From: Paenibacillus albus
Lineage (GTDB): Bacteria > Bacillota > Bacilli > Paenibacillales > Paenibacillaceae
DNA: 64,000 nt
Reading direction: 5' to 3'
Assembly: GCF_003952225.1 (NCBI RefSeq)
Contig: NZ_CP034437.1
Location: forward strand, 2,556,501-2,620,500
Shown: positions 5,407 through 26,869 of the stretch, piece after piece
Numbering within the stretch: the first letter of the stretch is position 1
Layout of the letters: every line of letters starts with the position of its first letter
Notes under the pieces: generated by a model
What the model was told of the DNA's origin: nothing
Database searches by the model: none
The model's input: the letters and a program-made list of their open reading frames with translations, nothing else
Position numbers and translations under genes: made by a program

Positions 5407-6408
5407 ATGGCTGCATTAACGGATCGTTTTGGGCGCGTACACGATTATTTGCGCATCTCTGTTACCGATCGGTGCAATTTGCGCTGTCTGTACTGTATGC
5501 CTGAGGAAGGCGTGAAGTTCGAGCCTGCGGAAAACTTGCTCAGCTACGACCAAATTACCGAGATCGTTCGCGTAGGTGCTAAGCTGGGAATTACGAAGCT
5601 GCGGATTACTGGAGGAGAGCCGCTTGTACGGCCAGGCCTGGCGGATTTAATCGGCCAGCTCTCAAGTATTCCGGGCATTCGGGATATTTCTTTAACAACA
5701 AACGGTGTACTGCTTGCGGACCAAGCTGAAGGCTTGCGGGCAGCGGGACTCAATCGAGTTAATATTAGCCTCGATACGCTGGATCCGACTCGTTTTAAGT
5801 TTATTGCGCGTCGCGGCGATTTGCAGCGAGTGATGCAGGGAATTGAAGCGGCCGCGAAGGTTGGCTTCGCACCGATTAAGCTTAACTGTGTGCTGCTGAA
5901 AGGCGTCAACGAAGACGAGATTGCCTCATTCCTGAAGATGGCTGCTGAGCAGCCGCTTCATGTGCGGTTTATCGAATATATGCCGATCGGCCACGCGGAT
6001 GACAACTGGCGCAATCATTATTTGCCGTTGTCGCGGGTGCTTGAGATTGCAAGCGAGATCGGTCTCGGCGTAGAGCCAATCAGCGATGTTCTGGGTAACG
6101 GCCCTTCCGAGGACTATCGAATTGCTGGCGGCAAAGGGACTTTTGGCCTTATCCATCCAATCAGCGACCAGTTCTGCAAACGATGCAACAGGCTCCGGTT
6201 GACGGCTGACGGCAGCATTAAGCCATGTCTCTATTGGGTCGATGAGCTGAATGTGAAGCCCGCGCTAGGCAGCCCTGATGAGCTTGAGAAGCTGTTCCTG
6301 CGGGCGATGGATATTAAGCCGCTCAATCATGAGATGGCAGAGAAGCTGGCAGGAGACGCGCAGAGCCACGAGCCGACGACGAGGCGCATGTCCCAGATCG
6401 GCGGCTAG
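5407..6408 (+). CDS. moaA: MoaA GTP 3',8-cyclase
   Basis: MoaA is the radical SAM enzyme that starts molybdenum cofactor synthesis by converting GTP to 3',8-cH2GTP. The SAM cluster cysteines are C23, C27 and C30 (CNLRCLYC). The second cluster is in FCKRCNRLR plus a later PCLY cysteine, and the tail ends in GG as expected. ATG 5407 is preferred because GGAAGGAG lies 8 bases upstream; the earlier ATG 5383 has no ribosome site. The length of 333 residues is normal. It is divergent from the moaD-moaE fusion and followed by a probable molybdopterin-fold protein. Confidence 0.96.
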   Translation: MAALTDRFGRVHDYLRISVTDRCNLRCLYCMPEEGVKFEPAENLLSYDQITEIVRVGAKLGITKLRITGGEPLVRPGLADLIGQLSSIPGIRDISLTTNGVLLADQAEGLRAAGLNRVNISLDTLDPTRFKFIARRGDLQRVMQGIEAAAKVGFAPIKLNCVLLKGVNEDEIASFLKMAAEQPLHVRFIEYMPIGHADDNWRNHYLPLSRVLEIASEIGLGVEPISDVLGNGPSEDYRIAGGKGTFGLIHPISDQFCKRCNRLRLTADGSIKPCLYWVDELNVKPALGSPDELEKLFLRAMDIKPLNHEMAEKLAGDAQSHEPTTRRMSQIGG

Positions 6409-6452
6409 TTAGGGTTGCGTAACAGGATTTGAAAAGGAAGCGAGGGATTGCC

Positions 6453-6935
6453 ATGACGGAGCATGCAGAGACGACGAGGATTACAATAGCATATTTCGGG
6501 CAGGAAACGATTAGTGTAACTCCGGAGGACATGGCAGCACTTGCAGGTCGAGCTTTCCCATTGATAGAGCGGGTTGCAGGCGGTGCAGGCGAGGCGTTTG
6601 ATTTTATGGAATGGCTTGGCGCGTACCGCAGCCAGCAAGGCGTAGCAGAAGACGCGCCGCTGCCGACGCATTTGAAGGTGGAAGCCTTCGATACATTCGA
6701 GGCGGTTATCCCATGGGAGCAGCTGAAGGATGCAGCGGTTCAGTTCGCAGTGGATGGGGCGCCGCTGCCGAAAGGCGGTCCGGTACGGCTGTATGTGCCT
6801 CATGGTTCCAGTGAATGCTTAAATGTAAAAAGCGTCATTGTCTTCCGATTGCTGCTTGATGAAGGTAATCGGGACGAAGCCTCATACGGCTTCAAATCTA
6901 CATTTACACCAGCTGAAATGCGAATGAAGCGATAG
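6453..6935 (+). CDS. Small sulfite-oxidase-like molybdopterin-fold protein (tentative)
   Basis: This 160-residue protein has no signal peptide or membrane segment. Residues about 80-130 contain a GGPVRLYVPHG segment followed by LNVKSV, which resembles the part of the sulfite oxidase/YedY fold that packs against the pterin (usual pattern GxPxRLxVPG then xKWL). It is too short to be a complete sulfite oxidase and lacks an obvious Mo-ligand cysteine in the usual context. ATG 6453 follows GAGGGA. It sits 44 bases after moaA and 23 bases before the nucleotidase gene, so a role linked to the cofactor is reasonable but unproven. Confidence 0.5.
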   Translation: MTEHAETTRITIAYFGQETISVTPEDMAALAGRAFPLIERVAGGAGEAFDFMEWLGAYRSQQGVAEDAPLPTHLKVEAFDTFEAVIPWEQLKDAAVQFAVDGAPLPKGGPVRLYVPHGSSECLNVKSVIVFRLLLDEGNRDEASYGFKSTFTPAEMRMKR

Positions 6936-6958
6936 TCGCTTATAAGCGGGAGGTCAGC

Positions 6959-8401
6959 ATGAACGAAATAGCAACGGATGCGCCAGACGTCGTGCTGCTT
7001 CATAGCAACGACATTCACAGCCGCTTGGAGCAGGCCGCCAGGATGGCCGCGTATATAGAAGAAGTGCGGAGCTCGCATGGAGCCGATCATGTGCTTACCT
7101 TGGATATCGGGGATCATATGGACCGGATGCGAGTTGAAACAGAAGCAAGTGATGGTCTTGCCAATATTGCGTTATTGAATGATGCCGGCTATGATGCCGT
7201 TACAATTGGGAACAACGAAGGGCTTACATTCACACAGCATCAGCTGGATGAAGCGTATGGCGAGCATGCAAGATTTCAAACAGTGTGCGCAAACTTCTTC
7301 AACGCAGATACGAAGCAGCGACCTTCATGGATGCTGCCCTCTACCATAATCCACAAGGCAGGGATACGCTTCGGATTAATTGGCGTGTCTGCAGCATTCG
7401 TAGCTTTCTACGAACTGCTCGATTGGGATGTTACCGATCCGCTCCATGAAGTCGCTGAGCAAGCGAAGCAGCTTCGCACTCAAGTGGACGTGCTGATAAT
7501 CATGTCGCATCTGGGAATTACGCTTGACCGGCGGATGGCGCAGGAGATTCCGGGCATTGATTTAATATTAGGCGCTCATACGCATCATCTGCTCGAAACG
7601 GCGGAAGTGATCGGATCTACGCATGTATGTGCTGCAGGGAAGTTTGGCGAGTATATGGGCCGCGTAGATATTTGGTTCAACTTCGAAACGAAGCAGCCGA
7701 GGTTCCAAGCAGCTTGTACACCCATGGAAGCTCGCGTCGAACAGCCGGAAGCTGCTGCTATTATTGGCCGTTATAAGGCCGAAGGCGAGCTCCGTCTTAG
7801 CCGGGTCGTCGCGGTATTGGACGCGCCGCTGCCGCTGAGCGCTGAGCGGGAGTCTCCGCTTGGCAATTTGCTCGCTGCGGGGCTAAGACGCTGGACGGAT
7901 GCCGATATTGGCATCGTCAACGCAGGGCAGCTGCTCAGCAGCCTCACCGCAGGCGAAGTGACGGCAGGCGACTTGCATGCGCTGTGCCCGTCGCCGATTA
8001 ATCCGTGCCGGATGAAGCTGAGCGGCGAGATGATTCGCTTATCGCTCGAAGAAGCGCTGCTGCCGGAGTATATCGACAAGCCGATTCGCGGCTTTGGCTT
8101 CCGAGGGCTTGTCCTCGGCACGCTTGCTGTAGACGGACTGACGATCGAGTATGTGCCGGGCAATCCCGCGCTTCATCGAATTGTTTCCATTCTGGTGAAC
8201 GGCGAACCGCTTCAGGACGATCGGCTCTATATCGTCGGAACGATCGACATGTTCACGTTCGGCATCGGCTACGAGAAGCTGAAGAATGGGCAGGAAATCT
8301 CTTATTACTTGCCGGAGTTTATCCGTGGCGTATTAGAGCAGGAGCTTCAAAATAAGGAAGCCATTGCCGCTAGCCGCCATAAACGCTGGTTAGCGGTTTA
8401 A
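6959..8401 (+). CDS. YunD-like 5'-nucleotidase / metallophosphatase
   Basis: This 480-residue two-domain protein belongs to the UshA/5'-nucleotidase superfamily. The N-terminal calcineurin-like metallophosphatase domain shows HSNDIHS, DIGDHMD, NNEG and GAHTHH metal-site motifs. The C-terminal nucleotidase domain (from about residue 285) includes NAGQLL and the substrate-binding region. There is no signal peptide, unlike UshA, so it should act in the cytoplasm like Bacillus YunD. ATG 6959 follows GGGAGG. It is likely co-transcribed with the genes before it. The natural substrate is not known. Confidence 0.85.
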   Translation: MNEIATDAPDVVLLHSNDIHSRLEQAARMAAYIEEVRSSHGADHVLTLDIGDHMDRMRVETEASDGLANIALLNDAGYDAVTIGNNEGLTFTQHQLDEAYGEHARFQTVCANFFNADTKQRPSWMLPSTIIHKAGIRFGLIGVSAAFVAFYELLDWDVTDPLHEVAEQAKQLRTQVDVLIIMSHLGITLDRRMAQEIPGIDLILGAHTHHLLETAEVIGSTHVCAAGKFGEYMGRVDIWFNFETKQPRFQAACTPMEARVEQPEAAAIIGRYKAEGELRLSRVVAVLDAPLPLSAERESPLGNLLAAGLRRWTDADIGIVNAGQLLSSLTAGEVTAGDLHALCPSPINPCRMKLSGEMIRLSLEEALLPEYIDKPIRGFGFRGLVLGTLAVDGLTIEYVPGNPALHRIVSILVNGEPLQDDRLYIVGTIDMFTFGIGYEKLKNGQEISYYLPEFIRGVLEQELQNKEAIAASRHKRWLAV

Positions 8402-8445: not shown

Positions 8446-9296
8446 ATGGAAAACATTATTCATGCGGTTATTTTAGGTATTGTAGAAGGCTTAACTGAGT
8501 TTTTGCCGGTTTCGTCATCCGGGCATATGATCTTGACGAACAAGCTGCTGGACATCGCTTCAGACGATCAAGCGATTGTCACCTTCGAGATTGTCATTCA
8601 GCTTGGTGCGATACTAGCGATGGCAATTGTATATTGGAACCGGATTCTCGATCTGTTCGGACTCTCGCGCAAGCAGCATTCTCTTGGCACGCTCTCTGCT
8701 GGTCGCAGCGCATTCAAGCGTTCTAAGCTGAATCTTATTCACGTAGCGCTCGGTATCGTTCCTGCGATGGGGCTAGCCTTTCTGCTGAAAGACATCATTA
8801 AAGGCGAAGGCTTCAACCAGACGCCGGTGCTCTTCTCGCTCGTTGTTGGCGGTATCTATATGATCGTTGCGGAATGGCTGAATCGGACACGCCGAGTTAA
8901 AGTTGTTGCAGAGACGATGGACGATATCTCCTACAAGCAGGCGTTCATGATCGGATTGCTTCAATGTTTGTCGCTCTGGCCGGGCTTCTCCCGTTCGGGT
9001 TCGACAATTGCAGGGGGATGCTGACAGGAACAAGCTATAAAGCGGCTGCAGACTTCTCGTTCCTGATGGCAATTCCGATTATGGTCGCTGCGACAGGATA
9101 CGAAATGCTTGATAACTACAAATATATTGAAGGCGATAACCTGATGTTCTTCATCGTCGGCTTCCTCGTTTCATTCGTAGTGGCATGGCTCGTTATCGTG
9201 TTGTTCCTGCGCTTCATCCAGAAGGTTAAGCTGACTCATTTTGCTATCTATCGTTTCATTTTGGCGGCATTATTCTGGATTTTCGTCATGAGATAA
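8446..9296 (+). pseudogene. uppP: Undecaprenyl-diphosphatase UppP, frameshifted
   Basis: UppP (BacA) is the membrane enzyme that recycles undecaprenyl diphosphate for cell-wall synthesis. The first frame runs from ATG 8446 (CAGGAGG just upstream) with EGLTEFLPVSSSGH and reaches PGFSRSGSTIAGG. It then hits a stop because a base is missing in the run of five G at 9013-9017. The second frame continues seamlessly as MLTGTSYKAAADFSF to 9296 with normal membrane helices. Adding one G restores a protein of about 283 residues, the family length. Both halves are fully conserved, so this looks like a sequence error or a very recent mutation. Confidence 0.9.
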
Positions 9297-9425
9297 GAAT
9301 TTCGGAAGGTATTGTCGATCTTTGACGAATCTTTTGTTGCTCTTTTGCAATAAATCCCTTACATTAAACTTACGAGGATTTGCTCGAAATTACCAATCAA
9401 TGGATGCAAGGCAGGGGTCGATACG

Positions 9426-10541
9426 ATGCGATTATTGCCCATACAGATGTGCCGACCAGGTATGCGCTTAGCCAAGAAGATCTATTCGGAAGAAGGCATC
9501 GTTCTCCTCAGCGAGAATGTCGAATTATCGGTGCGGCTGATAAACCGTCTTTCGGAATGCGGGGTTCATTTCGTTTATATCCAGGACCCGCGCTTGGCTG
9601 ATCTCGTTATACCTGATCTTATCAGCGAAGAGACTAGACAACGGGCGCTTAGTGAAATTCGCACAAATTTCCGTGATCTAATGGATCGGCCCAATCGTAA
9701 AACCGGTGTTACTTATCCTTATATCGCCAAGTCATTCAAACAGATCATGGGAATGGTCATTGATGATTTGACCGATCAGAAGGATGCCATGATTATGCTT
9801 ATGAACATGGGCATCGTGGATGATTATTTATTCCAGCATTCGCTGAATGTTGCCGTGTACACAACACTGCTTGGCATTGCAAATGGATACAGTAAGGACG
9901 AGCTGATGACGCTTGGACTTGGAGCAATGCTTCATGATATTGGCAAGACGCAGATTAGCCCGAATATTCTCAAGAAGCAAGGCTCTCTAACCATGGATGA
10001 ATATGAAGAGATGAAGCGGCATGCTGAGCGCGGCTATTACTTGTTAAAGGATGAGCCGAACATACCGCTCATTGCTGCGCATTGCGCGTACCAGCATCAT
10101 GAACGGCTTGATGGCAGCGGATATCCGCGAGGCATTAAAGGCGATCAGATCCATGAATATGCAAAGTGGATCGGGCTTGTCGATTCTTATGATGCGATGA
10201 CGACAACGCGAATCTATCGCAGACCGATGCTGCCGCATGAGGCGGTTGAGTCGTTGTATGCAGGCACGGGCACGCTGTATGAGCAGCGCATGCTTCAGCT
10301 GTTCCGCGATAAGGTAGCGATCTATCCACTGGGGATAACCGTTAAGCTGCAGACAGGTGAATATGGCGTCGTTGTCGATATTAACTCTTCGTGCCCGCAC
10401 CGGCCGGTTGTACGCGTATTGAATAATGAGAACGGCGAACAGCTAAATACGCCATACGAACTGGATTTATCGACGCAGCTGACAACGATGATTATCGGTG
10501 TGAACGATGATCCGCATTTACCGGAAGCTTCTGGGTCGTAA
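9426..10541 (+). CDS. HD-GYP domain c-di-GMP phosphodiesterase
   Basis: This 371-residue soluble protein has residues 1-120 as an N-terminal region like that of the HD-GYP protein at 3351. The HD-GYP domain follows, with HD at 170-171 (MLHDIGK) and HHERLDGSGYP ending at residue 234. A C-terminal segment (from about 300) has a small beta-rich GEYGVVVD pattern. All metal ligands are present, so c-di-GMP hydrolysis is likely. ATG 9426 is preceded by AGGGGT. It stands alone between uppP and a terminator. It and the gene at 3351 look like paralogs with the same domain plan. Confidence 0.88.
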   Translation: MRLLPIQMCRPGMRLAKKIYSEEGIVLLSENVELSVRLINRLSECGVHFVYIQDPRLADLVIPDLISEETRQRALSEIRTNFRDLMDRPNRKTGVTYPYIAKSFKQIMGMVIDDLTDQKDAMIMLMNMGIVDDYLFQHSLNVAVYTTLLGIANGYSKDELMTLGLGAMLHDIGKTQISPNILKKQGSLTMDEYEEMKRHAERGYYLLKDEPNIPLIAAHCAYQHHERLDGSGYPRGIKGDQIHEYAKWIGLVDSYDAMTTTRIYRRPMLPHEAVESLYAGTGTLYEQRMLQLFRDKVAIYPLGITVKLQTGEYGVVVDINSSCPHRPVVRVLNNENGEQLNTPYELDLSTQLTTMIIGVNDDPHLPEASGS

Positions 10542-13521: not shown

Positions 13522-13755
13522 GTGAATGTGACGAAGCAAACGCGCGAGTGGTATCCTTTTGTCGGCCCATTTGACCCTTGTCCGCCTAAGTATGTGAAGT
13601 CTTATTCCGTTCCACCCAATCAGTTTATTCCGTATCAGCCAATGAACTTGCCGCAATTTCCGCTCGCTGATGCCTTGAGGCTCGGCACGCTCTGGCCTGC
13701 ATTGTTTAGCCCGTACGAGTCCAAATGCAGGCCGACGGAGGGGAATAACGGATGA
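13522..13755 (+). CDS. cotJA: CotJA spore coat protein
   Basis: This 77-residue protein is rich in proline and aromatics with a WYPFVGPFDPCPP segment typical of CotJA, a mother-cell spore coat component. The start GTG 13522 follows a strong GAGGAGGAG 7 bases upstream; the in-frame ATG at 13471 has no ribosome site. The stop overlaps the cotJB ATG (ATGA). It is the first gene of the cotJABC operon, which in Bacillus is transcribed by sigma-E. I could not find a convincing sigma-E promoter here. Confidence 0.9.
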   Translation: MNVTKQTREWYPFVGPFDPCPPKYVKSYSVPPNQFIPYQPMNLPQFPLADALRLGTLWPALFSPYESKCRPTEGNNG

Positions 13756-14015
13756 ATAAGAAACTGGACGAGAATTATTACAAGAAGCTCCTAGAGCTGC
13801 AGCAGCTGGATTTTGCGCTGGTTGAGCTGACCTTATACCTCGATACACATCCGAATGATCTCCAGGCGTTGCAGCAGTTTAATCAACTGGCCCAGCAGCG
13901 GCAGCAATGTGCGACACAGTTCGAGATGGAATTTGGACCGCTTATGCAATTCGGGCACAGTTTCTCCAAATACCCTTGGCAATGGGTCGAAAGCCCTTGG
14001 CCTTGGCAAGTTTAA
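13752..14015 (+). CDS. cotJB: CotJB spore coat protein
   Basis: This 87-residue CotJB-family protein starts with a charged helix (YYKKLLELQQLDFALVELTL) and has the conserved LDTHPND motif followed by aromatic-rich PWQWVESPWPW at the C-terminus. Its start overlaps the cotJA stop by four bases, so it is translationally coupled. CotJB is a coat component of unknown biochemical role that assembles together with CotJC. Confidence 0.92.
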   Translation: MNKKLDENYYKKLLELQQLDFALVELTLYLDTHPNDLQALQQFNQLAQQRQQCATQFEMEFGPLMQFGHSFSKYPWQWVESPWPWQV

Positions 14016-14042
14016 GCGCGAACGAAGGGGAGGCGCTGCCGC

Positions 14043-14612
14043 ATGTGGATTTATGAGAAGAAGCTGCAATACCCGGTTAGGGTCAGCAAATGCGATCCTC
14101 GGGTCGCTCGCTATCTAGTCGAGCAGTACGGCGGGGCAGACGGCGAGCTGTCTGCGGCACTACGTTACTTAAATCAACGGTATTCGATACCGGATAAAGT
14201 TATTGGCTTACTTACGGACATTGGCACAGAGGAATTCGCCCATTTAGAGATGATAGCGACGATGATCTACAAGCTGACAAAAGACGCGACGCCAAGGCAG
14301 TTGGAGGAAGCCGGACTTGGCTCGAATTATGTCAACCACGATAATGGACTGTTCTACGCCAATTCTGCCGGTGTGCCGTGGACGGCTGCATATATCGGCA
14401 CGAAAGGCGATCCGCTCGCCGACTTGTACGAGGATATTGCGGCGGAGGAAAAAGCGCGTGCGACGTATCAATGGATTATCGATATGACCGACGACGTGGA
14501 TTTGCAGGATGGATTGAAATTTCTCCGTGAGCGGGAAATTGTGCATGCGATGCGGTTCAAGGAAGCTGTCGAGATACTGAAGGCGGATCGAGACACGAAA
14601 AAAGTGTTCTAA
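14043..14612 (+). CDS. cotJC: CotJC manganese-catalase-like coat protein
   Basis: This 189-residue four-helix ferritin-like protein of the Mn-catalase family sits in the spore coat. Metal-ligand residues are visible in the TEEFAHLEM helix and in the AAEEKARATY and REREIVHAMRF helices (E and E-x-x-H pairs). It begins MWIYEKKLQYPVRV as CotJC does. The RBS is GGGGAGG. It follows cotJB by 27 bases and ends just before a terminator. Catalase activity is inferred from the family. Confidence 0.93.
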   Translation: MWIYEKKLQYPVRVSKCDPRVARYLVEQYGGADGELSAALRYLNQRYSIPDKVIGLLTDIGTEEFAHLEMIATMIYKLTKDATPRQLEEAGLGSNYVNHDNGLFYANSAGVPWTAAYIGTKGDPLADLYEDIAAEEKARATYQWIIDMTDDVDLQDGLKFLREREIVHAMRFKEAVEILKADRDTKKVF

Positions 14613-17148: not shown

Positions 17149-18279
17149 TTAGTCATAGGTCGACGGGACGAGCTTCTCTTTCCGTCGTTTTTTTTGTTCG
17201 TACAGCCAGATGGCGTATTCAAGCGGCCTGATGATAGCCGTCCGGTAGGTGTCGCGTTCACCGGCTTGGATGAACACTTCGCGAGCTGGCTTCGGGTTGA
17301 CCTCGAGCAGCCAGATTTGGCCCTTGCGGTCAATTGCAAGGTCGAGCGCAAGCTCGCATAGGCGGCCATAGGACTGCTCCAGAAATTCGGCGATTTCGAC
17401 GCCGAGCAGCTCTGCTCGCGCCATGATGTCTTGCGTGGCTTTATCGTCCTTGATCCACTCGCTGAGCAGCTCTTTCATTCGGATCGCTTGCCCGCCGCCG
17501 TGCAGATTGGACGTGATGCTGCGAGAAGCGCCGATCCGGCCGGCACAACCGGTTACCTCCCATTCGCCTAGCCCATTTTTCTGCACGAGCATCCGGTAGT
17601 CATGGACACGCCCGTTCGGAAGCTTCAGCTGGATGCCCTGCTGCACGAGGTAGTTATTATCCTTCAGATTCCAAGATGACAGCCTGCTCTGAATGCTGGA
17701 GAGCGCGACCCGCTGCGGCGACACGATCCGGCGATCCTGGTCACGGCCTTGAATCGAGTAGCTGGCTCCTTGTTTCTCAATCCGAAGAATGCCGCGGCCG
17801 CCGGTGCCGTTAATCGGCTTTAAGTAGACGAGAGGATACTTGCGGATCATCTCCATCAAGTCATTCGAGCTCTCATACAAGCGCGTTTGAGGCAGATGCT
17901 CCTTGAAAACCTCTTCCTTGCGCATGGTTTTGTAAACCGTCCATTTGTTGCGAAGCACGCGGTTAAGAAAGGTGAGATGCCCGTACTTCCTGCGAAAATT
18001 ACTCAGCTCCACGAAACGATGGCTCTTCTGAATTCGGCACCGATCATAGATCATGTGCGGAAAAGAACGCCATCTTCGCGTCCAGCTCTGCGTTGCAGCA
18101 TCATACATATGTGCGTTAATCCGGTTCTGCGCATAGTTCACGTCAGAAGGCGTAAATACGAACACCTCAAGGCCGAGCTTCTTTCCTGAAATGATCATCT
18201 TCTGATAGACAGGCCTCTCCTCGAGCAGGCCATTGTCATTGAGATAGAGGGTTAGGATGCCGAGAACCGGCTGACCCAT
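17149..18279 (-). CDS. YheC/YheD-family ATP-grasp protein (short form)
   Basis: This 376-residue protein is of the spore-coat-associated ATP-grasp family, which by fold should join a carboxylate to an amine or similar using ATP; no substrate is known. It lacks the N-terminal barrel of YheD and begins directly with GQPVLGILTLYL. The ATP-binding loop is YLKPINGTGGRGI, and the catalytic C-terminal motif WLLEVNPKPAR keeps the E-x-N metal ligands. ATG 18279 follows AGGAGGAG. It is the last gene of the operon, 98 bases after the acetyltransferase gene, and is less like the other short copies. Confidence 0.85.
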   Translation of the reverse strand: MGQPVLGILTLYLNDNGLLEERPVYQKMIISGKKLGLEVFVFTPSDVNYAQNRINAHMYDAATQSWTRRWRSFPHMIYDRCRIQKSHRFVELSNFRRKYGHLTFLNRVLRNKWTVYKTMRKEEVFKEHLPQTRLYESSNDLMEMIRKYPLVYLKPINGTGGRGILRIEKQGASYSIQGRDQDRRIVSPQRVALSSIQSRLSSWNLKDNNYLVQQGIQLKLPNGRVHDYRMLVQKNGLGEWEVTGCAGRIGASRSITSNLHGGGQAIRMKELLSEWIKDDKATQDIMARAELLGVEIAEFLEQSYGRLCELALDLAIDRKGQIWLLEVNPKPAREVFIQAGERDTYRTAIIRPLEYAIWLYEQKKRRKEKLVPSTYD

Positions 18280-18377
18280 AATAACTCCTCCTAAACATTT
18301 TTGCATTCGTTACCGAAGGTGGAGTGACAAGCTCACTACCGAAGCGTGGGGCTTAATCTTGCTCTAGCCGCGCAGCT

Positions 18378-18854
18378 CTAGCTCTCAAACCGAAGCGTCG
18401 GCTTCCCTGTTGGTCCGATATGAAGGCTGACCGCCTTCATGCCGGCACGGAAGCACATGTTCATGCTTGACGGGTTATCGGCAGCAACCGCGCAAGTAAG
18501 GCGCCCGAGGCGCCGATGCAACGCCGCAAGCAGCGCGCTTCCGGCGCCTTGGCCGCGAAATTCCGGCGAGACGACGACGAAGCAGGCACTCTCGCCGCCG
18601 TCCTCCGCGAAAGCGACGGCGGCGAGCTTGCCGCTTATCACCGCGATGGCAATCGCCGCTTCAGCGCCTGCTTCGCCACCGCCACTGCCGCCACTACTGG
18701 CCGCTCGGCTTGCCGCAAGCCGCGCCGGAGCAAGCCCCTGAAGCGCAGCGAGCGCTGCGGTCGTAATCCGTTTATCTCCGTACCGATACAGAAAACGAGT
18801 GATCTTCTCTTTCGATGCCGACCACTGGGACGGCGACAACAGCTTTACTTTCAC
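18378..18854 (-). CDS. GNAT N-acetyltransferase in the YheC/D operon
   Basis: This protein of about 158 residues has the GNAT acetyl-CoA loop VSPEFRGQGAGSALL (R/Q-x-x-G-x-G) and a typical C-terminal NPSSMNMCFRAGMKAV segment. A Gly/Ala/Ser-rich stretch (SSGGSGGGEAGAEAA) interrupts the N-terminal half and coincides with very G+C-rich DNA. GTG 18854 is chosen because AAGGAG lies 11 bases upstream; an earlier GTG at 18890 has none. Lying between two ATP-grasp genes on the same strand, it may acetylate the product or a substrate of those enzymes. That link is inference only. Confidence 0.75.
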   Translation of the reverse strand: MKVKLLSPSQWSASKEKITRFLYRYGDKRITTAALAALQGLAPARLAASRAASSGGSGGGEAGAEAAIAIAVISGKLAAVAFAEDGGESACFVVVSPEFRGQGAGSALLAALHRRLGRLTCAVAADNPSSMNMCFRAGMKAVSLHIGPTGKPTLRFES

Positions 18855-18951
18855 GGGGGAACTCACTCCTTGCGTGCACGTTGCCCGCACCTAAAGCGCA
18901 TGATCCCCATCGCACTAGAGCAACAAATCGCGACCCGCCCGATGCTGTCTG

Positions 18952-20097
18952 CTACAGCCCTCGCATCTTCAGCAAATACTGGCTGTACTGAAAGATCCGG
19001 TCAAGCGAACGTTTGCGAATGTCCGGTTCATCGAACTTCATCGGCTTTGCATTGGCCTCGAAGAACCAGACATGGCCGTCTTGATCGACGCCGAGATCCA
19101 TCGACATTTCCATCAGCTTGCGGCGGGAGCCGCGCTCGATCTGCCTCGCGATGATGAGCGCCGTATTGCGAGTCTTTATAAGCAGTTTACGTGCTTCATC
19201 TTGGCCAAATACGCTGACAAGCAGTTTCTCCGGGTCCTCGATGCTGCCGCCGCGAGGCACATGCGTCGTAATGCTGTAAGAGCCTGCAACCCGAGCGCCG
19301 ATGCCGCTGATATCCCATTGGCCGCGCCGATTCTTCTGCACAAGCGTTCGCAGATCGAAGGACCGCTCATTGAATGCAGCGAGCTGAATGCCTTGCTGAG
19401 CGATATACCGCTCGCCGCTGCTTTCTTTTACAATCCGAGCCCAGAGCTTCGCAATCGTGCCGCAATTGTAGGTGGTGCTGCCCTTATCGCCTTGAATCTT
19501 CAGCGTATAGGGGAGCGTCTTCTCCGGCTGCAGCTGAATCGTCATAATGCCCTTGCCCGCTTTACCGCTGACCGGCTTCAAGTACAGAAAACGGTGCTTC
19601 AGCATCATTTTGCCGAGGCCTCCCGCTGTCAAGAGACGCCGTGTAGCGGGAATGAACGGCTGCGTCGTGCGGGACTGGCGCAGCCATTTGAATAGGCTCC
19701 ACTTGTTGAAGAACGAAGGGTTAAAGATTTGAATTTCCGGATGATTGACGCAAGCTGCGATCTTCCGCCTTGCTTCCGGTTGCAGCTCATCCTCGCGCAG
19801 CGGAATCCGGTTATAGATCAAGTTCGGAACAGGGAACTTCTGCCCAATCCACGTATCGGTATCTCTGTCATAGGTGAAGCCGTCAAGCAGCTTCCGACGA
19901 AGCTTCAGCTGCTTGACAGTAACCACGTAAACGAGGAAGCCGTGATCGGCACCTGCTGCAATAATGTCGGCGAAGTTGCTCCGGTTGCCGCGAAACAGCT
20001 GGATGTCGTCTTCAATCGTCAATATTGCAAGAACGGACTGCTTGCTCTGAATGATGGCGGCTTCGTCCGCTGAATCCTCGTGAAATACGAGTGCCAT
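18952..20097 (-). CDS. yheC: YheC-like ATP-grasp protein (short form)
   Basis: This 381-residue YheC/YheD-family protein lacks the long N-terminal barrel. The N-terminal third reads SVLAILTIEDD and includes a VPNLIYNRIP segment found across the family. The ATP loop is YLKPVSGKAGKGI, the lysine-binding strand is LRTLVQKNRRGQW, and the catalytic tail is WFFEANAKP with E and N preserved. The start ATG 20097 overlaps the stop of the preceding gene (TGATG), so translation is coupled. With the long-form gene upstream it forms a yheD-yheC type pair. The symbol is at family level only. Confidence 0.85.
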   Translation of the reverse strand: MALVFHEDSADEAAIIQSKQSVLAILTIEDDIQLFRGNRSNFADIIAAGADHGFLVYVVTVKQLKLRRKLLDGFTYDRDTDTWIGQKFPVPNLIYNRIPLREDELQPEARRKIAACVNHPEIQIFNPSFFNKWSLFKWLRQSRTTQPFIPATRRLLTAGGLGKMMLKHRFLYLKPVSGKAGKGIMTIQLQPEKTLPYTLKIQGDKGSTTYNCGTIAKLWARIVKESSGERYIAQQGIQLAAFNERSFDLRTLVQKNRRGQWDISGIGARVAGSYSITTHVPRGGSIEDPEKLLVSVFGQDEARKLLIKTRNTALIIARQIERGSRRKLMEMSMDLGVDQDGHVWFFEANAKPMKFDEPDIRKRSLDRIFQYSQYLLKMRGL

Positions 20098-21473
20098 CAG
20101 ACTTCGCCTCCTTGCCCCGTGAACTTGCTGAGGTACATGCAGTGCTCCAGGATATGATTAACCGACTCCCGTCCTTGCGCGCGAAGTGCCGGATGGCTGA
20201 AGATCGAACGGCCCGGCTTGGCGTTCGCTTCGAACATCCACACCTCACCGTCCTTGTCGATGCCGATATCCAGGCCAAGCTCACCGAGCGTATGCGGGAA
20301 GTTGCGCTCGATGGCTTCCGACAGCTTCACGGAAACTTCTTTCGCTTTGGTCAGCATCTCGTCGGAGCGCTCGCCGAAGGCTTGCTTGAGCGCCTGTTCC
20401 GGCGTGAGCAGTTGGCCGCCGTTCTTGATATGCGTCGTTACGCTGCCGCGGCCCGCTTTCTTCGCGCCGATGCCGACCGGCACCCATGCGTTGTTGCCGT
20501 TCTTATGCATATGAAAGCGGAAGTCGATCGGGCAGCCATCGATTTCGATGAGCCGAACGCCTTGCTGGCTCACATACCGGCCGAGTCCGCTGCCATGCCT
20601 CGTTTCCAGCATCCGCATTAAGCTGTTGAAGTTCGTAAATCGCAGCAGGACGTTCGTGCCGCCTCTGCGATAACGGGCGAAATATCCGCGCTTCGGATGA
20701 TACGTAAGCCGGTAAATACCGATGCCAAGGCTGCCTGCAGTCGGCTTGTAATAGATGAATTGATGGTTCTCGAGCATCTCTTTTATTTTATCCGAGCGTG
20801 GGTTCGTGACGGACTCCGGCAAGTGTTCGAGAGCCTCTACGTCCTTGTCGAGCAGCTTATATACATCCGATTTGTTGAAGAAGCTCCAGTTGAAGAACGG
20901 AACACCTTTACGGATGAATCGCTCCCTGAGCGACATGATCGTAGAAGTGGTCTCTGCAACGCGGCTCGGCAAACGGTTATAAACAACATCGGGAAGCGGA
21001 ACGACTTTGCGATACCAGCCGCCGGTGCTGTTCAAGAAGTAGCCGTTAATCGTGCCTTGATTCCAGTTCACGTCTCTCGGAGTAAAGGCGAAGAAATAGG
21101 CCTTGCGTTCCCCTATCCGAAGCAGTTGGCGAATATATCCGGAGCGGGAGCCAAACGGGGACTCGCTGGAACGACTGCCGTCTGTCAGGACTCCGATCAG
21201 CGGACCAAGCTGAACCTCATTGTCGTCTCCTTGAATAAAGGAGATGCTGCCGGCTTTCGGCACACGGATGGATTGGCGGACGCCAGCGGACAGATAGAGA
21301 TGGTGACCTTGCCGCTCAATGGTTTTGACCGCTGCGGTTATAACCTCGTGGCCGAGCTTTAATTGAATTGTCTTTTTGCCGGCAAGCTTCAGCGACTTGA
21401 GGAGTGAGCCCGACAGATAGACGATACGGTCGCTTGATGGTGAGAAGTGTACATGACAAGATGTCAAACTCAT
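20097..21473 (-). CDS. yheD: YheD-like ATP-grasp protein (long form)
   Basis: This 458-residue protein is close to Bacillus YheD in length. An N-terminal beta-rich domain (about 1-95) ends in LGPLIGVLTDG and is followed by the ATP-grasp region. Motifs are PDVVYNRLPSR, YYKPTAGSLGIGI (ATP loop), RFHMHKNGNNAW and WMFEANAKPGR (catalytic E and N). YheD of Bacillus localises around the forespore as part of the coat. It overlaps the genes on both sides by a few bases. The substrate is unknown. Confidence 0.87.
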   Translation of the reverse strand: MSLTSCHVHFSPSSDRIVYLSGSLLKSLKLAGKKTIQLKLGHEVITAAVKTIERQGHHLYLSAGVRQSIRVPKAGSISFIQGDDNEVQLGPLIGVLTDGSRSSESPFGSRSGYIRQLLRIGERKAYFFAFTPRDVNWNQGTINGYFLNSTGGWYRKVVPLPDVVYNRLPSRVAETTSTIMSLRERFIRKGVPFFNWSFFNKSDVYKLLDKDVEALEHLPESVTNPRSDKIKEMLENHQFIYYKPTAGSLGIGIYRLTYHPKRGYFARYRRGGTNVLLRFTNFNSLMRMLETRHGSGLGRYVSQQGVRLIEIDGCPIDFRFHMHKNGNNAWVPVGIGAKKAGRGSVTTHIKNGGQLLTPEQALKQAFGERSDEMLTKAKEVSVKLSEAIERNFPHTLGELGLDIGIDKDGEVWMFEANAKPGRSIFSHPALRAQGRESVNHILEHCMYLSKFTGQGGEV

Positions 21474-22663
21474 GGATGAACCTCCTGGATGTATCTCCCT
21501 TGATTTCGGTTTGAATGGAATAATGGTTTCTGGCGAGCAGCGAGATGCAGGGCATACTGCAGCGGCCGCATGACCGCAGCTTCATACGTGTGCTCATCAT
21601 CCTCAAAAGATTGACGGCCAGGCTTGCTGTTTGCTTCCAGCAGCCATATTCGGCCGTCCTGTTCAATGCCGAAGTCTAGCCCAAGCTCGGCAAAACGTCC
21701 GAAATGCTGCTCCAGCACTTCGGCTGCACATTCGCTGATACGGCGGATGAGCTGCAGCATTCGAGCTGCGACTTCTTCACCGAAGCGCTCTGTAAGCACA
21801 TCTGCAGCATTCGCTGCGGTGCCACCGCCGTGCAAATTCGAGGTAACGCTTCCGCTCTCGCCCGTGCGAATGGCAGCGCCGGTGAAAGTCCACCTTCCAA
21901 AGCCGTCCTTTTGCACAAGTGCACGAACGTCGAAGGGACAGCCGGTCTCGTCAATCAACTTGAGACAGGGCTGGATAACGTAAGGTGCTCCAGCGGTGAA
22001 CCGGAAGATCCAGCTGCATACATTACGCCAACTGGAGAACGCATGTGAAAGAGGACGGTTCCTTCGGTCTCTGCCATCAATCTGCCAGCCGTTTGCCGCC
22101 CGTATGAGTCGAAATGCACCTTTGCCCTGCGCACCGGCAGATGGTTTCATGAAGATGCCGTCCTCGTGCTGGCTTGCTGCAAGCTCGAGACTATGCGCGC
22201 CGGAATAACCCACCGAGCTCGGGACATGCGGCGCTAGCTTGGTATTGCCACTCAGCACGCTGTAGACATATAGCTTGCCGGGAAGCGAACCATTCAATAG
22301 AGTATACGGCTTCAATCGTTTTAGTTCGTTCAGCGCCTCCACTATCAGCGCGTAATGATCGGATGACTTAGGCAGCGCCCGGTCATAGACAAGGTCGGGA
22401 AGCGGGAAGCTTCCCGCATGCCATGCTCCGTCCCGCAGCTGATAACCGTGAAGCGTTCGGTTCACTGCGTACGGGACGCTGGTGGCGCAGAAGAAATATA
22501 CGAGCAGCCCAAGTGATTGCGAGAGGCTGTTCAGCAGACGGCAGAAGGAGTCCTCCGGCAATGCGGAAGGCGCCTTGCTCTCGCCTTGAGCACCGGAGAC
22601 GGACTTCGGGCGAATTTCACTGATCATAACGCCAAGTACGGGAAATTGTTCAGAGATAGCCAT
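21470..22663 (-). CDS. yheC: YheC-like ATP-grasp protein (short form)
   Basis: This 397-residue short-form family member begins FPVLGVMISEI and carries an extra, probably disordered, loop around residues 20-35 (SVSGAQGESKAPSA). Motifs are LPDLVYDRALPK, MKPSAGAQGKGAF (ATP loop), VRALVQKDGFGRW, SVTSNLHGGG and WLLEANSKPGR. Catalytic residues are kept. The stop overlaps the start of the next gene by four bases (ATGA), and it begins 21 bases after the preceding long-form gene, so it is the second gene of the operon. Confidence 0.86.
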   Translation of the reverse strand: MAISEQFPVLGVMISEIRPKSVSGAQGESKAPSALPEDSFCRLLNSLSQSLGLLVYFFCATSVPYAVNRTLHGYQLRDGAWHAGSFPLPDLVYDRALPKSSDHYALIVEALNELKRLKPYTLLNGSLPGKLYVYSVLSGNTKLAPHVPSSVGYSGAHSLELAASQHEDGIFMKPSAGAQGKGAFRLIRAANGWQIDGRDRRNRPLSHAFSSWRNVCSWIFRFTAGAPYVIQPCLKLIDETGCPFDVRALVQKDGFGRWTFTGAAIRTGESGSVTSNLHGGGTAANAADVLTERFGEEVAARMLQLIRRISECAAEVLEQHFGRFAELGLDFGIEQDGRIWLLEANSKPGRQSFEDDEHTYEAAVMRPLQYALHLAARQKPLFHSNRNQGRYIQEVHP

Positions 22664-22684
22664 GCGGTCGCTACCTCCTTTTCG

Positions 22685-24046
22685 TTAAAATTCGGCAAGA
22701 TGCCGGGCATAGCGAATCAAATTGCGGACAGACGGGCGGATTTTGTTATCCTGCAGCGGCGTATTATCGTTCTTGGACGGCTTCGAGTTGACCTCGAGCA
22801 GCCAGACCCGGCCGCTCGTATCGAGCGCCAGATCGATACCAAGCTCACCGAAGTGAGCAGGGATGTGCGTATCAATACCCTTCGCAATTTCAAGAGCTGC
22901 GCGGGTCAGTTTTCCAGGTGCATCACTGCTGTTGGATAGGTTTGACTTTGCGACCGCCTCACGAACCGTGCTGAGCGTACCGCCTCTGGCAAGATTGGAG
23001 ACGAAATGATTGCTTCCGGCTGTACGCGCGACGATGGATGTGAGCATCCATTTGCCGAGCTCATTCTTCTGCACAAGCGCGCGGAAATCGACGGGCCGCC
23101 CCAAAATATCAATCAGATGAAGACCTTGCTGGATCTGATAACGGACCGTTTTCATTTTGCCGGAGATGGATGCGTACAGTTTGGCGATCCCGTTAAAATG
23201 CTGTCTCCGCGTCCCGAGCGTAGTCGCATATTGTGCAGAATAAGAATCGGTATCGACTCTGGTGATGCGGATAATGCCTTTGCCCAGACTGCCGCGCACC
23301 GGCTTGAGGAAGACGGTGTTGTGCTTACTGCACATCGCCTTGAGCATCGGCAAGCTGCGCAGCACATGCGATTCCGGCAAATATTTGATGAGGGAGCCGT
23401 CCTTCACCAATGCTTCGAACACTTCGGATTTATCGAGAAACTTCTCGTTGAACACCGTACTTCCATGCCGGAGCTTCACTTCTTTAATAAATTGCTGCAC
23501 GTTCACGCGATTCTCCAGCTTGCGGCTCGTTAAACGGTTGTTAACGACATCGGGAACGGGCATCATCACTTTCCGCCAGCCATCGGAGTAGACCCATCCC
23601 TCAACATGATTGAAATTATCAGTTACATGATCCGGCGTAAAAAAATAAACATGAGCGCCTTGGGCGGCGCAGGCATCGACGAGTTCCTTGCAGAACATAG
23701 TGATGGAGCCGAAAGGCCGGTCTCTTGTTTCGGGATCGTCGCGGCTGATAAGAACACCGATGAGCGGTCCAAGCGAGAGAGTAGATGTATCGTAGTTGTA
23801 ACGGATGCGAAGCGATGTACCTACGAACAAGCCCATCTTCCTTGCTAAGCTTTGACCGATGCGCATGCCGTCATATCGCTCAACGGGCACTACTTTGACA
23901 TAATGGCGAAGCGCTCCAAACTTCAGGATGACCGGCTGTCCTTGCGGAATTTTCCACTGTCTTAAATAAGCATCGCCGAGCATTATGGCATCATCCGGCA
24001 AGATGCCTGGGCTGATGACCTGAACGGCGACTTTCGATTTGAGCAT
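22685..24046 (-). CDS. yheD: YheD-like ATP-grasp protein (long form)
   Basis: This first gene of the five-member cluster encodes 453 residues, the same length as Bacillus YheD. An N-terminal barrel domain (1-95; SPGILPDDAIMLG, LSLGPLIGVLIS) precedes the ATP-grasp region with PDVVNNRLTSR, FLKPVRGSLGKGI, FRALVQKNELGKW and WLLEVNSKPSK. ATG 24046 follows AAGGAG; the upstream in-frame codon at 24094 would add 16 low-complexity residues and has no ribosome site. A sigma-K-like promoter lies about 80 bases upstream. It differs clearly in sequence from the other long-form copy, so the duplication is not recent. Confidence 0.87.
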   Translation of the reverse strand: MLKSKVAVQVISPGILPDDAIMLGDAYLRQWKIPQGQPVILKFGALRHYVKVVPVERYDGMRIGQSLARKMGLFVGTSLRIRYNYDTSTLSLGPLIGVLISRDDPETRDRPFGSITMFCKELVDACAAQGAHVYFFTPDHVTDNFNHVEGWVYSDGWRKVMMPVPDVVNNRLTSRKLENRVNVQQFIKEVKLRHGSTVFNEKFLDKSEVFEALVKDGSLIKYLPESHVLRSLPMLKAMCSKHNTVFLKPVRGSLGKGIIRITRVDTDSYSAQYATTLGTRRQHFNGIAKLYASISGKMKTVRYQIQQGLHLIDILGRPVDFRALVQKNELGKWMLTSIVARTAGSNHFVSNLARGGTLSTVREAVAKSNLSNSSDAPGKLTRAALEIAKGIDTHIPAHFGELGIDLALDTSGRVWLLEVNSKPSKNDNTPLQDNKIRPSVRNLIRYARHLAEF

Positions 24047-24123
24047 CGACGAAGCTCCTTCCAGGCTGGAGGATGACGAGGTGCAGCTTCTCAAGGTCTT
24101 AGGCAGTTACACACGAATTAATT

Positions 24124-24152
24124 CATCATATGAGGACAGATATACCTTGGTG
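24124..24152 (-). promoter_or_regulatory. Candidate sigma-K promoter of the YheC/D operon
   Basis: On the minus strand CACC (24149-24152) is followed by 16 bases and CATATGATG (24124-24132). This fits the sigma-K pattern mACm-N16-CATAnnnTA with one mismatch at the last base. The RNA start would be about 70 bases before ATG 24046. Sigma-E was also considered, but its -35 element is missing. Confidence 0.5.
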
Positions 24153-26533: not shown

Positions 26534-26869
26534 TTAGACCGCCCCTCTGCACAGCCAGCGAATCAGCTCTGTCCCCATATGCGCGCCGAGGAAGGCGCAC
26601 AGAATGTAGGCGATCTGGAGCGCGACCGGCGATAGATGACCTTCGATCATATTGCTTTCAATGACCCTCATCGGATCAATCGTGCCGCCGACAGCGGCAA
26701 CTAGCGCCCAAATTTTGAGCCGCGAAGCGGTTTCCAGCATAATGGCAGCAGGTGCGGCAAGTACGAATACCGAGCCAATTCCGGCCAGCATAGAGCCGCC
26801 GAATACGACGCCGAAGGCGATGAAGAAATCAATCGTAGCTTTCGATAAGAAGGAGTCCATCCTTTTCAT
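26534..26869 (-). CDS. ytrH: YtrH sporulation protein
   Basis: This 111-residue protein has about three membrane helices and the conserved AFGVVFGGSMLAGIGSVF and GGTIDPMRVIESN segments of YtrH. AGGAGGG lies just before ATG 26869. In Bacillus ytrHI is a sigma-E operon required for full spore resistance, and here a near-consensus sigma-E promoter is found about 60 bases upstream. It is divergent from dnaE, as in Bacillus. Confidence 0.9.
   Translation of the reverse strand: MKRMDSFLSKATIDFFIAFGVVFGGSMLAGIGSVFVLAAPAAIMLETASRLKIWALVAAVGGTIDPMRVIESNMIEGHLSPVALQIAYILCAFLGAHMGTELIRWLCRGAV

Follow-up and report, generated by a model that had tools for sequence, protein, structure and literature searches.

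The window studied here is a stretch of 64,000 nucleotides from Paenibacillus albus; it carries a row of five genes for ATP-grasp proteins of the YheC/YheD (YheC/D) family together with one gene for a GNAT acetyltransferase-like protein, all on the minus strand. This cassette is best explained as a full form of the yhe locus of Bacilli, in which five anciently separate ligase lineages stand beside the GNAT gene. The YheC/D family is already known; its reaction is not, as far as the literature examined goes. What, then, are five such enzymes doing next to one another? The reading we favour, at a probability a little under one half (about 0.47), is that the cassette encodes carboxylate-amine ligases which are made in the mother cell and, as a set, modify proteins of the spore surface. 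Counted in support of protein ligation are the fold, the invariant catalytic residues, the location of YheD on the spore (PMC7911427), the pairing of a sister clade with collagen-like genes, and the fast but constrained evolution of one cassette member. We infer that the enzymes act on proteins, and likewise which of their parts bind the client.

Five old lineages in one gene row

The YheC/D genes are named Y1 to Y5 in transcription order, and their coordinates are positions in the window. Y1 (22685..24046) encodes a long protein of 453 amino acids when read from an ATG at 24046 that is closely preceded by GGAAGGAG; its open reading frame (ORF) spans 22685-24094, or 469 amino acids counted from a TTG. 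It is followed by the short Y2 (21470..22663, 397 amino acids), the long Y3 (20097..21473, 458 amino acids), Y4 (18952..20097, 381 amino acids, here without the long N-terminal domain), the GNAT gene (18378..18890, 170 amino acids) and the short Y5 (17149..18306, 385 amino acids from the first ATG or 376 from a later one). Y1 and Y2 are 21 nt apart, Y2 and Y3 overlap by 4 nt and Y3 and Y4 by 1 nt, and gaps of 61 and 71 nt separate the GNAT gene from Y4 and Y5. All five YheC/D ORFs match PF14398 (ATPgrasp_YheCD) at 222-279 bits against a curated cut-off of 26.8 (E 8e-66 to 5e-83), and the GNAT gene lies narrowly above the cut-offs of two GNAT models. These coordinates and matches bear out a preliminary description of this DNA, which had seen five same-strand YheC/D-family ATP-grasp genes and a GNAT gene with short or overlapping junctions. 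It had placed the row in 17149..24152; coding sequence accounts for 17149-24046, and the upper end is an upstream element.

Are all five proteins still enzymes? The K-P-x-x-G-x-x-G loop and the E-x-N-x-[KR]-P tail are present in every one, so the earlier claim that the ATP loop and catalytic tail are kept holds, as it also does residue by residue among relatives. A scan with Y1 gave 59 loci named Paenibacillus or Cohnella (two filed as Bacillus sp.), the closest named ones being Paenibacillus sp. OV219 (98% Y1 identity) and P. taihuensis (95%); because the loci were picked by Y1, their counts show linkage and not prevalence. Overlapping ORFs in the fetched loci were thinned greedily. Residues K206, K248, P249, G252, G255, Q306, D320, R322, W333, E401, D405, E418 and N420 (Y1 numbering) are invariant in 60/60 sequences of each of Y1 to Y4. 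The same residues are found in 50 or 51 of 51 Y5 sequences, depending on the site, the odd sequence probably being a short copy of 328 amino acids (L061). Since the catalytic residues are invariant or nearly so, all five lineages look active as judged from sequence. Across the 50 loci with all five Y genes, the median identity to the window is 70% for Y1, 41% for Y2, 71% for Y3, 62% for Y4 and 65% for Y5; Y2 is thus the fastest evolving copy, yet its ATP-grasp residues are strictly kept.

This conservation bears on the idea that the proteins are mainly building blocks of the coat, in which ATP binding merely drives self-assembly. In favour of such a role, YheD, described as a coat protein without a known function, assembles first into rings and later into a shell that surrounds the spore, and it interacts with itself in a two-hybrid assay (PMC7911427). 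Against it stand the strictly retained ATP-grasp residues of all lineages, fast-changing Y2 included, and the maintenance of five lineages side by side; we regard a structural role as improbable.

The order Y1-Y2-Y3-Y4 is found in 59/59 of the Paenibacillus/Cohnella loci, Y5 in 50/59 and the GNAT gene in 44/59 (a weak match of 35 bits in one of the 44, L060); being absent from 15 close loci, the GNAT gene is not obligatory. How did the row come about? The preliminary description had taken the alternating lengths for two copies of the yheD-yheC pair of Bacillus plus one more, and recent tandem duplication into redundant copies would agree with the alternation seen in the window. Pairwise identity among Y1-Y5 is only 25-34%, so they are not recent duplicates. 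Phylogenetic trees resolve five distinct clades, and relatives of each occur in other families: every one of Y1-Y5 is a single clade in a tree of 99 proteins (Shimodaira-Hasegawa-like approximate likelihood ratio test, SH-aLRT, 95-100), and the Y1 clade stands at 100/100 in a later tree that includes Bacillus-type genes. The approximately unbiased (AU) test rejects a forced grouping of Y2 with Y4 (p 1.7e-24) and of Y1 with Y3 (p 8e-4). Because these tests and the placement of YheC with Y2 and of YheD with Y3 contradict it, the alternation does not represent two Bacillus pairs, and a recent duplication has next to no chance of being right.

The placement of the Bacillus genes comes from two Bacillus-type stretches (L320 and L324), which hold YheC/D genes of 363 and 452 amino acids with YheA/YheB-like neighbours. 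We take their family to be Bacillus from synteny and gene lengths, and a further neighbour, recognised by eye, is presumably an alpha/beta-type small acid-soluble spore protein (SASP). The 363-residue protein falls with Y2 and the 452-residue protein with Y3 (bootstrap/SH-aLRT 100/98 each, the 363-residue pair on a long branch), and they therefore correspond to YheC and YheD. Strict orthologues are only Y2 (YheC-like) and Y3 (YheD-like); Y1, Y4 and Y5 are paralogues. An assignment of the Bacillus pair to Y3 and Y4 was ruled out by the fuller loci L320, L324 and L325. Bacillus YheC and YheD share with the cassette a PF14398 match far above the cut-off, and their YheB-like (DUF445) and YlbF-like neighbours also stand, with DRTGG-CBS genes, beside cassettes of other families. 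They differ in number: the Bacillus-type stretches examined hold one to three of these genes (other stretches of the same family have Y1+Y3+Y4 or Y3 alone), whereas the window has Y1-Y5 and the GNAT gene.

Among seven selected loci of other Bacilli families, the best-hit order is Y1-Y2-Y3-Y4 in six. In L196, Y4 is split into two ORFs (L196:1558-2861), a broken or frameshifted copy, and in L197 only Y1, Y3 and the GNAT gene are seen. The GNAT gene accompanies the cassette in three of these families (5/7 loci), there too as a neighbour of Y4. When the Y1 query was run against a sample spanning the class, 109 of 151 genomes gave at least one YheC/D match. Beyond the locus of the window genome itself, 29 loci were fetched: 10 belong to the family of the window and 19 to nine other families. 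Y2 comes directly after Y1 in 28 of the 29, the single miss lying at a contig end. Y2 is followed by Y3 in 18 loci and by Y4 instead in three, which gives a cassette of Y1, Y2 and Y4, and in the remaining loci the fetched flank stops there. These patterns are most simply read as a long cassette of old standing in Bacilli, of which Bacillus has retained a part.

The window genome (6.63 Mb, one contig) has 12 PF14398 matches in total, including Y1-Y5, and 59/59 relatives have between 4 and 18. Five of its YheC/D proteins are 'mini' forms of 224-270 amino acids without the N-terminal half, in a clade of their own (L073:8326-9138, L074:7696-8370, L075:7856-8602, L077:7548-8288 and L078:7907-8674). 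The first of these is the yheCD-like orf between gyrB and gyrA described in Paenibacillus (Iiyama 2014, as cited in PMC5627462); it shares the Pfam family of the cassette and differs in belonging to the mini clade.

Control region and sporulation setting

Upstream of Y1 lies an element of the form AC-N17-CATATGATG (24124..24151, minus strand), conserved across families. Its form fits the sigma-K promoter consensus, and we call it sigma-K-like. AC-N16/17-CATAnnnT[AG] is found upstream of Y1 in 58/60 sequences (the window and the 59 loci), in 6/6 cassettes of other families despite a changed spacer, and in 24 of the 29 class-sample loci against 0.8 expected from letter shuffling; three genomes are common to the last two counts. 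Scans for sigma-70 promoters and terminators gave no more than shuffled sequences. Sigma-E and sigma-K are both mother-cell factors. Within about 3.5 kb of the cassette are genes for CotJB and a manganese catalase (13752-14612) and for YtrH (26534-26869); to judge from their names CotJB and YtrH belong to spore families, and the catalase is CotJC-like by position. Together, the element and these neighbours support the sporulation setting proposed in the preliminary description, and the cassette is probably co-transcribed and expressed in the mother cell late in sporulation, as far as its sequence goes. The predicted control differs from that reported for B. subtilis yheC and yheD, which are under sigma-E with SpoIIID (PMC517825).

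A sister clade paired with collagen-like genes

What could the clients be? Two of the seven other YheC/D copies in the window genome adjoin collagen-like genes (L072:7693-8805 with 6017-7555 and 8991-9926; L076:7388-8581 with 8751-9800). Collagen-linked YheC/D proteins group in a clade of their own (SH-aLRT 98), made up of 22 paired proteins and 3 unpaired ones, and a collagen-like gene divergently adjoins the YheC/D gene in 22/26 fetched loci, L157, L158 (a short copy, left out of the tree), L161 and L162 being unpaired. These 26 were picks from the best matches, with a C-terminal fragment in G018 (C16) left out; separate checks confirmed the collagen genes at L141 and L155 as well as the YheC gene at L146. 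A second set, picked after the idea had formed, shows the pairing in 39/40 loci (37 by a cut of eight repeats, with L255 and L259 added at seven). It comprises the best new matches at 39-70% identity from 38 genomes, two of them used twice, which are not in the tree; eight partial matches were left out (two each in G447 and G445, one each in G373, G334, G412 and G381). Its single miss, L263, adjoins only a BclA_C-like ORF (E 2.7e-6, under the cut-off). Since the outer genes vary between loci, the YheC/D-collagen pair has been retained as a unit. Around other YheC/D clades no tract of eight repeats was found in 51 fetched loci with 1.5 kb of flank, and the window and the 59 cassette loci have no collagen tract at a 12-repeat cut.

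The C-terminal domains differ among the paired collagen-like proteins: two of seven tested pass an exosporium model related to BclB, at E 8e-62 and 4e-52, and one gives a match to BclA_C that stays under the cut-off. Their starts are more uniform. In the second set 38/39 begin with MG[RK] and one with MGQ. In the first set a strict count gives the start motif in 20/22, of which 18 have MG[RK], with L159 and L160 lacking R/K; inspection by eye added L139, missed through an artefact of the start position, and L151 (MGRLPGPPGPAG). Among 24 unpaired collagen-like loci in five genomes, the MG[RK] start occurs once (L271), a contrast that is soft because several of the 24 are low-complexity matches and probably not collagens. 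These 24 are 19 fetched of 29 PF01391 loci in four genomes, plus five of the window genome. The gene at L271 starts with MGK and has no YheC/D gene in the fetched 5 kb. At two of the loci without a collagen-like gene, small neighbours start with MGRRGCRC (L161:2624-2875) and MGVRPGGCPC (L162:1063-1278) and have no Pfam match. Sigma-K-like elements lie between the genes of 20 divergent collagen pairs in 5/40 strand-regions against 0.7 expected, and so are not a general feature.

Collagen-like anchor and tip proteins are described in Bacillus spore appendages, and fibres on a Paenibacillus (PMC11952670); the word ATP-grasp does not occur in the main text of that paper. No link between the YheC/D family and collagen-like proteins was found in the available text of open-licence papers, a scope that does not take in PMC8303946, where collagen-like, ATP-grasp and spore all occur.

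Another kind of client was considered and set aside. Proteins with the repeat F-x-P-G-F-A-G-T-N-x-Q-[EQ]-V-R adjoin the yhe cassette in one other family, f32 (L193:6904-7911, L194:2855-3598), and also occur at loci L200-L227. The L194 protein has no Pfam match, and a divergent relative sharing the repeat (L227) matches gamma-type SASP (PF04259, E 6e-14). Matches occur in 33/250 genomes of the class, where their coordinates often place them at a distance from YheC/D genes; the window genome has none. The likeness to SASP, the scattered positions and the absence from the window genome told against a multi-core client.

Protein ligation and its alternatives

The AlphaFold model of Y1 (predicted local distance difference test score 91.7) has its best fold matches in LysX/ArgX, RimK and glutathione synthetase, with a good match to D-Ala ligases as well. 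By sequence no PDB chain is close to the cassette proteins, the best being a glutathione synthetase at E 1e-4. The structure comparison hardly covers the N-terminal domain of Y1 (1-92). This domain (residues 1-93; 23768..24046, minus strand) precedes the ATP-grasp part (residues 94-453) and is predicted to form strand-strand-helix-strand twice; Y3 has a corresponding domain (21195..21473, minus strand). The cassette proteins share their predicted overall ATP-grasp fold with RimK and LysX/ArgX and differ in sequence, with scores below the model cut-offs, and in the extra N-terminal domain of Y1 and Y3. The RimK (TIGR00768) and MptN models give 25-30 bits with Y1 and Y5, far below their cut-offs of 143 and 350, and do not match Y2-Y4. 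As for graspetide ligases such as PsnB, no precursor peptide was recognised, although no systematic small-ORF search was made.

On our favoured reading, each ligase would use ATP to form an acyl phosphate on a carboxylate of a coat or exosporium protein (the C-terminus or an Asp/Glu side chain), which would then be joined to an amine. The amine could come from an amino acid, a peptide or a second protein, and the chemistry would be that of RimK and LysX/ArgX on their protein substrates. Holding the protein client would fall to the N-terminal domain of Y1 and Y3, and acylating the amine donor or the product to the GNAT protein; the fast-changing Y2 would track a fast-changing surface client. 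Several points weigh against this. The cassette has no demonstrated client; small-molecule ligases have the same fold, and the Y1 model also matches non-ligases, which counts slightly; homologues of the N-terminal domain give weak CDC48_N/PEX1-N-like matches, but also matches to ProQ_C, again a slight point; and the collagen-linked clade is distant from the cassette and lacks the G355-G356 loop.

Could the substrates be small instead? Ligases working in turn on small substrates might build a short non-ribosomal peptide or amide polymer in the coat, capped by the GNAT protein. This was the suggestion of the preliminary description, in which different paralogues would add different units. Several distinct ligases and a GNAT gene in one row invite this view, as does the fold match of the Y1 model to glutathione synthetase and D-Ala ligases. 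The nearest published idea points the same way: where R2K.2 and R2K.3 ATP-grasp ligases are linked, in some cases to GNAT genes as well, peptide ligation has been proposed as a first step, after which a second ligase or acyl capping comes into play (PMC4431377). However, the row consists of ligases and the GNAT gene only, with no export, supply or carrier gene within it. Its members are also lost singly in fetched stretches elsewhere (leaving Y2+Y3; Y1+Y3+Y4; Y3 alone; or Y1, Y2 and Y4), which is odd for a fixed line, and in the sister clade the linkage is to a protein gene. These neighbours of the sister clade favour the modification of proteins over a free polymer, and we consider an assembly line unlikely. 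The enzymes might otherwise make a mother-cell metabolite (for instance a thiol, an osmolyte or a cofactor derivative) unrelated to coat proteins. Y1 and Y5 resemble the models of glutathione synthetase, RimK and MptN, though far below cut-offs, and glutathione synthetase is among the best matches of the Y1 model. The location of YheD on the spore (PMC7911427) and the pairing of the sister clade with collagen genes argue the other way and leave such a pathway quite unlikely.

Protein ligation may extend to the family as a whole. A possible, though doubtful, proposal is that YheC/D proteins form a spore-specific protein-ligation system with its own protein client per lineage: the collagen-linked clade would join a group to exosporium-type collagen filaments, and the cassette would act likewise on coat proteins, with the GNAT protein acylating donors or products. 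The candidate mark on the filaments is the start MG[RK]xx[CG]PPGPPGP, and attachment might be to the C-terminus or to the glycine that becomes N-terminal once the initiator Met is removed.

Neither the cassette-level history nor the ligase-collagen pairing was found in the available text of the open-licence literature. If the Bacillus pair is a remnant of up to five active-looking ligases, with a sister clade bound to one kind of surface protein gene, this vaguely defined family can be put to the test, with the collagen-like partner as candidate client, its start as candidate recognition sequence, and both genes of a size that suits co-expression. Should this hold, it would be a new class of protein modification on the spore surface, relevant to adhesion, resistance and germination, and spores would be covered by a layer of amide-linked modifications on their proteins for which no one has searched.

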